NCBI GenBank assembly: GCA_026989685.1 | Contig: JALSIV010000289.1 | Span: forward strand, 1-40,522 | Length of the DNA stretch: 40,522 bases | Direction: 5' to 3' | Source of the DNA: Pirellulaceae bacterium | Lineage (GTDB): Bacteria > Planctomycetota > Planctomycetia > Pirellulales > Pirellulaceae | Part shown: piece by piece, positions 21,864 to 26,180 of the stretch | Numbering within the stretch: the stretch's first letter is position 1 | Layout: each line of letters opens with the position of its first letter | Program-made: the position numbers and the translations under genes | Notes under the pieces: model-generated | Seen by the model: only the letters and a program-made list of their open reading frames with translations | Databases searched by the model: none | Told to the model about the DNA's origin: nothing

Positions 21864-22427
21864 ATGTTGGCCAAGGAAATCAAGCCGGGGGCCGTCGTCG
21901 TCTACCAAGACGCGCCGGTGCTGATTCTCAAGGTGACGGTGCAAACCCCGTCGGCTCGAGGCGCATCGACCCTCTACAAGATGCGCGGCCGCAACCTCGT
22001 CACTCGGCAAAAGACCGACATCACGCTCAAAGGTGGCGAATCGCTCGAGCAGGCCGACTTCCAAAAGCGGCCGGTCAAGATGATGTACACCGACCCGACC
22101 CACCTCCACCTGCTCGACCAGGAAGACTTCAATCAGTACAGCGTGACGCTGGAAGACGTTGCCGAACAGTTGCCGTACGTCACGGAGGAACTCGAGGGAA
22201 TGACGGCGTTGATCTACAATGACGAGTGCGTGGGAATCCAACTGCCGGTCGCTGTCACGCTGAAGGTCGCCCAGTGCGACCCTTACGTCAAAGGAAACTC
22301 GGCCACCGGACGAACGAAGCCGGCGACGCTGGAAACCGGCCTGGTGGTGCAGGTTCCCGAATACCTGTCCCAAGGCGAGCGGATCAAGGTCGACACGCGC
22401 ACCGGTGAATTCCTCTCGCGCGCCTGA
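21864..22427 (+). CDS. efp: Elongation factor P
   Basis: 187 aa; AKEIKPGAVVVYQDAPVLILKVTVQTPSARGASTLYKMRGRNLVT...DQEDFNQYSVTLEDVAEQLPYVTEELEG...GNSATGRTKPATLETGLVVQVPEYLSQGERIKVDTRTGEFLSRA. Confidence 0.96.
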   Translation: MLAKEIKPGAVVVYQDAPVLILKVTVQTPSARGASTLYKMRGRNLVTRQKTDITLKGGESLEQADFQKRPVKMMYTDPTHLHLLDQEDFNQYSVTLEDVAEQLPYVTEELEGMTALIYNDECVGIQLPVAVTLKVAQCDPYVKGNSATGRTKPATLETGLVVQVPEYLSQGERIKVDTRTGEFLSRA

Positions 22428-22464: not shown

Positions 22465-22587
22465 CGCTTGCGTTACAGTCTCATTTCGCAACGTCTGCGC
22501 GCCGTGCCCGCATGCTGCCCTGGCTTTCGGTTGTCACCACCAGTCCTACAGCCTCCGGTCTCCCGCCTCCGGCCTTGCGGGCGCAGC
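22465..22587. repeat. Dispersed intergenic repeat, copy 4 (tail; inverted-arm head lost or degenerate)
   Basis: TTCGCAACGTCTGCGCGCCGTGCCCGCATG...CTTTCGGTTGTCACCACCAGTCCTACAGCCTCCGGTCTCCCGCCTCCGGCCTTGCGGGCGCAGC, nearly identical to the tail of copy 2. Confidence 0.8.
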
Positions 22588-22623
22588 TCACGTTGGGATG
22601 GTCTCGAGCCCACGCCCCGAGAA

Positions 22624-22860
22624 CTACCCCAAACGCTTGCCGATCGCGTCCACCACTGCCTGTTCATCGGGAAACGAACCCGTCTCCAGCTTGGAATAGA
22701 CGAGTTCGTCACCGGCGGTGACTTCGAAACAGCCACCGGTTCCCGGTTCGAGCTCCAAGGAGCTGATCTGCTGCTTATACGTAGAGAGGATCTTTTCCGC
22801 CAAACTGACGGCTTTGGGTTCGTAGTTTCAAACAGAGCAGTAACGCAAATGGATTTTCAT
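22624..22860 (-). CDS. SelW/Rdx-family (SelT/SelW/SelH) selenoprotein with in-frame UGA read as selenocysteine
   Basis: Minus strand ATG 22860 to TAG 22624: MKIHLRYCSV(U)NYEPKAVSLAEKILSTYKQQISSLELEPGTGGCFEVTAGDELVYSKLETGSFPDEQAVVDAIGKRLG. UGA at 22828-22830 falls exactly at the Rdx CxxU position (YCxxU), and the downstream PGTGGxFEV...L.YS...G.FP is Rdx-like. AGAAGGAG Shine-Dalgarno upstream. Absent from the ORF track because UGA splits it. Confidence 0.9.
22800..22817 (-). promoter_or_regulatory. Candidate bacterial SECIS stem-loop just downstream of the UGA
   Basis: Minus strand CCAAA-GCCGUCAG-UUUGG: 5-bp stem, 8-nt loop beginning with G, stem starting 10 nt after the UGA. Short, and an alternative fold GCCG/UGGC exists. 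Confidence 0.4.
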
Positions 22861-22901: not shown

Positions 22902-23075
22902 CTATTTCCGGGTCTTCTTTTTTGCCGATTTGGTCGTCTTGGACGCCTTCTTGGCCTTGGCCGACCCCGACTTCTTGGCCGTTACGCTCTTGGCCTTCCG
23001 TTTGCGTTTACCGCCGAAAGCCGCTTCCCAGCCCGCTGCATACTTCTGATTCGTACCAACTCGCACAATCGTCAC
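22902..23075 (-). CDS. Small Lys/Ala-rich basic protein (57 aa)
   Basis: GTG start at 23075 with AGGGGAG upstream: MTIVRVGTNQKYAAGWEAAFGGKRKRKAKSVTAKKSGSAKAKKASKTTKSAKKKTRK; ends 41 nt before the SelW-like start, same strand. Confidence 0.65.
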   Translation of the reverse strand: MTIVRVGTNQKYAAGWEAAFGGKRKRKAKSVTAKKSGSAKAKKASKTTKSAKKKTRK

Positions 23076-23302: not shown

Positions 23303-23854
23303 CTATTTCTTCTCTTTGCGGCCGCCCACTCGCGGCAGCGCCATGAATTCTCGCACCGACTTGGGTCCCGATTTTTCCGCGGACTTCGGTTTGCTGCCCG
23401 AGCCGGGCAACCAGCCGGTCAGAGAAAACGCCGACTTCTTCTTCTGGGGACGGCTTGACGGCGCGGAAGCCGCCTTGCCTTTCTTCCACGGCATTAAGAA
23501 CGACGTCGTCTTGTCGACGAAATTCGACGTCCCGCGCTTGACTCGGCTCCACGTGGACACGTTGGGCCTGGCGGGGTGCTTGTGAGCCGTCGAACGAGTC
23601 GTCTTGCTGGTCGAGACGAACGGCACCTTGGGGGCGGGGAGCTGCCACTTGGGAAGCTGAAACGTAGGCAGGCTCCAACCGGCCGACTTGGTCGATGACT
23701 GTGGAGGCTCGTCACCGACGCGAGCGGTCACGCGCTTGCTCGACTTGCCTCGCTTCTTGGAAAGACCCGGCAGTTGGAATCCATCGGCCGTGTTCGGCAT
23801 CAGGAGGGCAACAGCCAATGCTGTGCTCAACAAACGGATTACGTTACGTCGCAT
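23303..23854 (-). CDS. Exported basic, low-complexity hypothetical protein
   Basis: MRRNVIRLLSTALAVALLMPNTADGFQLPGLSKKRGKSSKR...; signal-peptide-like N-terminus, Lys/Ser/Pro-rich; 183 aa from ATG 23854. Confidence 0.6.
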   Translation of the reverse strand: MRRNVIRLLSTALAVALLMPNTADGFQLPGLSKKRGKSSKRVTARVGDEPPQSSTKSAGWSLPTFQLPKWQLPAPKVPFVSTSKTTRSTAHKHPARPNVSTWSRVKRGTSNFVDKTTSFLMPWKKGKAASAPSSRPQKKKSAFSLTGWLPGSGSKPKSAEKSGPKSVREFMALPRVGGRKEKK

Positions 23855-24248
23855 CGTCTTGACTCCCTCGAAACCACGCGCCCGGCGGTTTCGCCTGCTT
23901 GTCCGTGCATCCCGGGAGACCGCCACGCACTCCGGCCTCCAACGCGGCGGGAGTGTCTCAAATCCCCGACACCGTGTCCAGGTCGGTTTGCAATTCGGCC
24001 GTCACGCCCGGCGACGATCCAGCATGGCACACCGCGCCCGCTCGGTCCGCTGCGTTCGCCGGGTCCACCTGGTCCACTCCCACCACCCACCCAGAGGAAC
24101 TCGCCGCCTTCGTTGAACGGAGTCCGGCCGTGCCCTACAATCGAAGAGCCCTCGGCCGAGTCGCCGCACTGCCACCTCGGTCCCCTGCCAACCGCTCCGT
24201 GGGCCCCGTTCGAGTGGACGACGCTTCCCTTCGCCTTTTCTCCTCGCT

Positions 24249-26180
24249 ATGACGATTGACCTGATTCTGGGAACGGCCGGTCACATCGACCACGGCAAGA
24301 CGTCGCTGATTCGAGCGCTCACGGGCGTCGACACCGACCGCCTTCCCGAAGAAAAGAAACGCGGCATCACCATCGAACTCGGTTTCGCCGAACTGGTGGT
24401 CGGTCCCTACCGGCTGGGCATCGTCGATGTTCCGGGGCACGAGCGTTTCGTGCGCAACATGCTGGCCGGCGCCACGGGCATGGATCTGGCGATGCTGGTC
24501 GTGGCCGCCGACGACTCGGTCAATCGCCAGACTCGCGAACACCTCGACATCCTCCGCATGCTCGATCTGCCCGCCGGCGTGTTGGTCATCACCAAATGCG
24601 ATCTGGTCGAGCCTGGTTGGACCGATCTGGTGGAAGAAGAGATCCGCGAGCTGGTCGAGGGGACGTTTCTTCAAGATGCGCCGCTGGTCCGCACCAGCGC
24701 GGCGCAAGGGGAAGGCATCGAGCAGCTCAAGGAAGTCCTCCAGCAGCAAGCCGCACAGGCAGCTCAAGTCCGTTCCCATTCGAGGGGCCCCTTCCGCATG
24801 GCCATTGACCGCTGCTTCACCATTGCCGGGCACGGCACCGTGGTCACCGGGAGTGTCGGAAGCGGGAGGGCCGCCGTGGGGGATGAGCTGGTGGTCGAGC
24901 CGGGTGGAATCGCCGTGCGCGTGCGAGGCATCCACAATCACGATCGCCCGGTGGAGGAAATCAGACGAGGGCAACGCGCTGCCATCAACCTGGCAGGCAT
25001 CCACCACGAACAGGTCCGACGCGGCCATGAACTGGCGTCCCCCGGCCACCTGCGGCCCGCTCGCTGCCTCACGGTGAAACTCGACCTGCTGGCCGACGCC
25101 GTGCGCCCTTTGAAAAACCGAAGCCGCTTGCGGCTCCACCTGGGAACCGCCGAAATGATGGCAACAGTACGCCTGCTCGACCGCGATACCCTGGCGCCGG
25201 GCCAGACCGGTTTCGCCCAAATGCTGCTCCGCTACCAGGTCGCCGCCACCTGGAATCAACCGTTCGTCGTTCGTACCGAGTCGCCCGTGGTGACGATCGG
25301 CGGTGGTCGCGTCGTCGATCCCGATGCCCGACTGCTGAAACGGCCATCGGCCCTCGACTTGGAATACCTGAAGCGGCGGGCCACCGGCGATTCGCGAGAG
25401 CGGACTGAAGCCGCTCTGTACTTCGCCGATCTCAACGATTTCCCCCTCGAGTCGCTGGCCTGTACCGCCGGCGTTTCCGATGCAGCCGCTGCCATCGACC
25501 AACTGAAGTCGGAACGCGTGCTTCGCGAAGTTCCGCTCACGGCAACCCACGTCTTTCGCATCCACCAAGCCCGGCTGGAACAACTGGCCGACCGGATCGC
25601 CGAACGAATGGCGAAATTGCACGAGACGCATCCGCTTCGCTCCGTGCTCGACCGGCAACTCGTGCTCCAGCCCTTCGCCCGCACGGTGCCCCTGCCGGTC
25701 CTGCATGAAGCCATCCGGGAACTGAAAAAGCGGGAAAAGGTGCGGGAGACGCCTCGAGGCTTGTCGCTGGTGGGACACGCCCCCAAACTCTCGCAAAACG
25801 AAACTCGGCTGCTGGAGTGGATCTGCCAACGTTATCGGGAAGCCGAACTCCAAGTTCCGCGTGTCGCCGAACTCAAGAACGAAGTCAGCAAAAACCAACA
25901 GTCGATTCCCCAACTGGTGGCCATCGCTGTCGCCGACGGCGATCTGGTGGAACTGGCCGACGATCTGGTCATTCACCGCCAAACCCTCCGACAGATTCAG
26001 CAGCGCTTGCGCGACGAGTTGGCCGGATCGCAAGGTCTCACGCTGAGCCAGATCCGGGAAGTCCTGGGAACGACCCGCAAATACGCCGTTCCCCTCTGCG
26101 AATATCTCGACAGCACCGGATTCACTCGCCGAGAAGGCGACTTGCGGTTCCTGGCTGCGAACGAGAACGGGGACTCGTAA
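24249..26180 (+). CDS. selB: Selenocysteine-specific translation elongation factor SelB
   Basis: [92 protein letters not shown]-terminal winged-helix region ending [41 protein letters not shown]. Confidence 0.96.

Follow-up and report, generated by a model that had tools for sequence, protein, structure and literature searches.

A well-supported SelW-like selenoprotein gene with an in-frame UGA codon in a Pirellulaceae bacterium

Introduction

In bacteria, selenocysteine (Sec) is placed at UGA codons by SelB acting together with Sec-tRNA-Sec and a hairpin; the SECIS element of eukaryotes is located in the 3' UTR, unlike that of bacteria. Descriptions of bacterial SelW-like selenoproteins with the CxxU motif go back to 2005-2006 (PMC1088965; PMC1794560), with the first of these papers also stating an interaction of SelW with glutathione and the second reporting that Cys forms are few or absent in Sec-using organisms. 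The SelW-like family has been placed among the most widespread marine selenoprotein families (PMC2398784), it is listed with PF10262 as 'predicted with high confidence' (PMC13188914), and a missed SelW annotation was noted earlier in Epsilonproteobacteria (PMC4607533). No naming of SelW in Planctomycetes was found in the main texts of the literature searched, and SelW does not appear in the main text of the planctomycete selenoprotein paper PMC4807772.

The gene described here is located in a 40,522-nt window (the whole stretch of DNA analysed, contig JALSIV010000289.1 of the Pirellulaceae assembly GCA_026989685.1). It shares with the bacterial SelW-like family the CxxU motif with UGA at its last position, the family profile, the thioredoxin-like fold, a SECIS whose small apical loop contains a G and the scarcity of Cys forms among Sec-using bacteria. 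No essential difference from that family was found, apart from the lineage not being named for SelW in the main texts of PMC1088965, PMC1794560, PMC2398784 and PMC13188914, and from the location, the present copy being near selB and those of relatives near tRNA-Sec. Since such proteins have been known in bacteria for that long, the gene is regarded as a well-supported further member of the family.

The selW frame and its product

The SelW-like (Rdx family) gene occupies positions 22624-22860 on the minus strand, with an ATG at 22860 and a TAG at 22624-22626, and codes for a protein of 78 aa. This frame was proposed in a preliminary description made from the sequence alone, and its exact translation with TGA taken as U reproduces the peptide printed there base for base; the 79 codons counted in that description include the stop. 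The translation contains a single U at codon 11 (TGA 22828-22830) and is closed by the TAG. A ribosome-binding-like AAGGAG is found 8 nt 5' of the ATG, and a scan for sigma-70-type promoters found none.

With the TGA read through, the product matches the Pfam Rdx family PF10262 with 77.2 bits against a cut-off of 22.6, and the alignment covers profile positions 1-72 of 74, extending across the UGA to near the end of the profile, so the match downstream of the UGA on which the preliminary description depended is present. When all six frames of the genome were searched with the Rdx profile, this was the sole locus obtained (69.1 bits, with '1 TGA' inside). The NCBIfam model TIGR02174 'CXXU_selWTH' is matched at 69.5 bits, where the cut-off is 34.2; the score for NF041051 SelTWH_Campy is 80.5 bits, below its equivalog cut-off of 88, and the frame is therefore not assigned to this narrower Campylobacter equivalog. 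The redox motif following the first strand is C8-S-V-U11, which puts the UGA at the last position of CxxU, that is, on the catalytic Sec position to which it had been attributed. Standard ORF calling misses the gene, as had been stated, and yields instead a 59-aa post-UGA piece with a TTG start (22624-22803) and an overlapping frame at 22473-22736.

The structure predicted by AlphaFold2 from an alignment of 30 sequences, with Cys substituted for Sec, has a pLDDT of 93.8 and the strand and helix order of thioredoxin-like proteins, and it superimposes on 3dex, 2obk, 2oka, 2fa8, 2ojl and 2p0g with a TM-score of about 0.9 and an rmsd of about 1 Å. Every one of the best PDB matches is a SelW/Rdx protein, and the sequence profile retrieves the same set. 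The claim that the fold continues in frame after the UGA is borne out by the Rdx match across this codon. Fold and family are common to the present protein and the Cys-type Rdx proteins, represented by 3dex, 2obk, 2oka, 2fa8 and 2p0g and by a second paralogue in relatives (L015-L020), but the paralogues of relatives have CxxC with a RWLLRAAWMAQELL helix and no UGA and constitute a separate subfamily. Mouse selenoprotein W (2npb) has the CxxU motif and the fold in common with the present protein and is detectably similar in sequence (E = 1.3e-7), although it is more distant in structure (TM about 0.69).

Conservation of the UGA codon

The codon was followed in 40 genomes (the genome itself and 39 relatives) and in a class sample of 399 genomes. 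A SelW-like protein is encoded in 20 of the 40, each full-length copy containing exactly one TGA, and the TGA form is listed in 120 of the 399. In all 30 aligned copies, which come from many genera, the TGA occupies the codon corresponding to 22828-22830 (minus strand), and the relatives continue past it rather than ending there, which would have counted against the preliminary description. Invariant in the 30 sequences are C8, position 11, Y13, A17, L20, G42, G43, F45, S56, K57, F63 and P64. In several homologues a second TGA, located after the recoded one, is the real stop, from which it follows that TGA is still a stop codon in these organisms.

The 59-aa ORF mentioned above could be taken to mean that translation restarts past the UGA, at TTG 22803 or similar, producing a short Rdx fragment devoid of the CxxU strand. 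This is scarcely credible given that the part preceding the UGA (M-x-x-x-L-x-YC) is as conserved as the remainder of the protein and holds the first strand of the fold together with its redox Cys.

After the UGA, comparison with the copy from the same genus gives dN = 0.064 and dS = 1.78, i.e. a dN/dS of about 0.04, with dS being near saturation; the post-UGA frame is under strong purifying selection. These values, together with the position of the UGA at one codon in every aligned copy and the co-occurrence of the UGA form with tRNA-Sec considered below, make it extremely improbable that the gene is a pseudogene or the product of a sequencing error in which a former Cys codon has become a real stop and the product is truncated, even though standard ORF calling does stop at the UGA and the window belongs to a fragmented assembly of 462 contigs.

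A Cys codon had been expected at this position in close relatives, but none was seen, the close relatives retaining UGA. Cys forms of the SelW subfamily are very rare and are represented by one Myxococcales MAG, the single Cys relative returned when 85,488 species genomes were scanned with a Cys-for-U pattern, and by locus L090 in the class sample. As there is only one Myxococcales Cys relative, the nucleotides following its Cys codon say little about loss of the hairpin. L090 (G203:C84:4617-4838) reads YCAECGYEPQ, lies near the SelW subfamily and comes from a genome with tRNA-Sec; it is possibly a Sec-to-Cys replacement. A separate full-length Cys-type Rdx protein (CxxC, about 100 bits) of a different subfamily is encoded in 6 of the 40 genomes.

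The SECIS-type hairpin

A bacterial SECIS-type hairpin, CCGUC-AGUUU-GGCGG, is located at 22797-22811 on the minus strand and was assessed by minimum free energy (MFE), RNAalifold, pair counts and silent sites. Its apical loop AGUUU lies 21 nt past the UGA; counting the loop as AGUUU or GUU gives a distance of 21-22 nt and a stem of 5-6 bp. The G at loop position 2 is invariant in the 30 sequences, as is the closing A-U pair, which, if counted as a pair, leaves GUU as the loop. The bSECIS model of PMC13188914 has a loop of 3-9 nt located 16-37 nt past the UGA, a stem of 4-16 bp and a G within the first two loop positions, and the hairpin conforms to this shape; in most of the 30 sequences a U comes directly after the loop G, which is the pattern of that paper.

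RNAalifold, applied to the ungapped alignment of the 30 sequences, gave this hairpin only. In its six-pair form 90.6% of cells are paired, compared to 86.4 +/- 0.6 in shuffles and 24-44% in slid versions, and two pairs are altered on both sides, i.e. show compensatory changes. Silent sites are also constrained: Ser is encoded by AGT at 27 of 29 sites in the hairpin versus 11 of 143 elsewhere (p = 2e-20), and Val by GTC at 21 of 24 versus 46 of 108. The hairpin thus imposes silent-site conservation, the sites being frozen inside it and free outside.

The MFE is -7.2 kcal/mol for segments of 36-48 nt and -7.5 kcal/mol for those of 54-60 nt, where the pairing is different; at -7.2 kcal/mol the hairpin is narrowly outside the published search threshold for bSECIS elements, MFE <= -7.5 kcal/mol, which 26 of the 30 sequences pass at 45 nt. 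Compared to shuffles the energy is not unusual (z = -0.10), and the case for a SECIS therefore rests on conservation and covariation. In segments taking in sequence 5' of the UGA, the predicted pairing probability of the hairpin is 0.3-0.74.

Selenocysteine machinery and co-occurrence

The genome codes for a complete Sec machinery (selA, selB, selC and selD); the absence of selA, selC and selD would have counted against the preliminary description, and all three are present, with selB found within the window itself. The latter gene, located at 24249-26180 on the plus strand with its start 1.4 kb from that of selW, codes for a selenocysteine-specific elongation factor of 643 aa (TIGR00475, 364.8 bits, cut-off 242) with a SelB winged-helix domain (PF09107 SelB-wing_3, 60.3 bits, and also PF25461). 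The gene selA (510 bits) is split over two contig ends, lying on C175 and continuing at the beginning of C349, and selD (394 bits) is on contig C38 and has a Sec-UGA of its own. The gathering-threshold Rfam scan and ARAGORN detected no RNA genes in the window; tRNA-Sec is on another contig, C330 (63.5 bits), with the anticodon tca (UCA) according to ARAGORN.

In the 40 genomes, where tRNA-Sec was counted when scoring above 60 bits, 19 have both the UGA form and tRNA-Sec, 3 have tRNA-Sec without the UGA form, 1 has the UGA form without tRNA-Sec and 17 have neither (p = 4e-7); the corresponding numbers for the 399 class genomes are 106, 81, 14 and 198 (p = 1.6e-29), with both p-values ignoring shared ancestry. 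Matches to RF01852 of 45-54 bits, mostly about 85 nt long, were interpreted as other class II tRNAs and left out of the tRNA-Sec count. Several of the 14 class genomes with the UGA form in which tRNA-Sec was not found are incomplete assemblies. Genome G003 was rejected as a case of the UGA form without selB, since its contig C42 ends at the place where G378, of the same genus, has selB, which makes a gap at the contig end the simplest reading. In G378, selB, selW and tRNA-Sec are all within 11 kb on one contig.

The frame is open under any reassignment of UGA and could in principle be decoded with another amino acid, either through a general code change (for instance UGA = Trp or Gly) or by near-cognate read-through. 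There is, however, hardly any likelihood of this, as homologues terminate at a second, real TGA, tRNA-Sec with its UCA anticodon is present along with SelA, SelB and SelD, the site is the redox residue of CxxU/CxxC, and the SECIS-type hairpin is conserved.

Gene neighbourhood and other loci

An elongation factor P-type gene (21864-22427, plus strand) is arranged tail to tail with selW; this order is kept in L131, L132, L133 and L135, and in L136 the EF-P gene is near selW. Directly upstream of selW, at 22905-23075 on the minus strand, there is a CDS coding for a 57-aa mini-protein with the pattern V/MTIxRVGSTxKYAxNWxxAFG and a basic tail, which has no Pfam or NCBIfam match. Matches to it, many of them weak, were obtained in 33 of the 40 genomes, and most of the loci searched for it have it close to selW. 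Between selW and selB lies a 207-aa basic, low-complexity ORF (23303-23926, minus strand) with no family match.

On contig C38 (L012:1396-3099), selD is followed by a UGA and then, in the same frame, by a peroxiredoxin-like gene (PF13911/PF00578) with a UGA in RHLA-U-IPC (UxxC), which is likely to be a third selenoprotein gene. A fusion of SelD and peroxiredoxin was considered and rejected, as genome G001 of the same genus has two separate adjacent matches, the second of which, peroxiredoxin-like, also contains one TGA. Because of these separate matches the middle UGA on C38 is most likely the stop of selD.

Discussion

The Rdx match across the UGA, the continuation of the relatives past it and the presence of the Sec machinery uphold the SelW-like selenoprotein reading, and with a probability of about 0.96 positions 22624-22860 hold a functional gene for a selenoprotein from the Rdx family's SelW-like branch, with UGA read as Sec. 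SelA and SelD would charge tRNA-Sec(UCA), and SelB would bring the Sec-tRNA-Sec to the ribosome and, while bound to the hairpin, place it at the UGA, where Sec would be inserted in place of termination. In the resulting 78-aa thioredoxin-fold protein, Cys8-x-x-Sec11 would form a redox couple of thiol and selenol; its exchange partner is most likely glutathione or a thioredoxin-type protein, which agrees with the account of the family in PMC1088965. The role of the protein in the cell is probably in thiol redox; that the SelW branch instead reports on or regulates selenium supply or Sec decoding, and is not a general antioxidant, seems unlikely. The branch is nearly obligately Sec-containing in this lineage and has a loose conserved neighbourhood of selB, tRNA-Sec and EF-P.

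The gene opens no new kind of biology; its gene model, split by standard ORF calling, is now corrected. Judging by about 400 genomes of the class, the SelW-like protein is a common selenoprotein of the lineage with the Cys form almost absent, and the combination of a compact covarying SECIS with a protein of only 78 aa makes it well suited to testing Sec insertion in the lineage.
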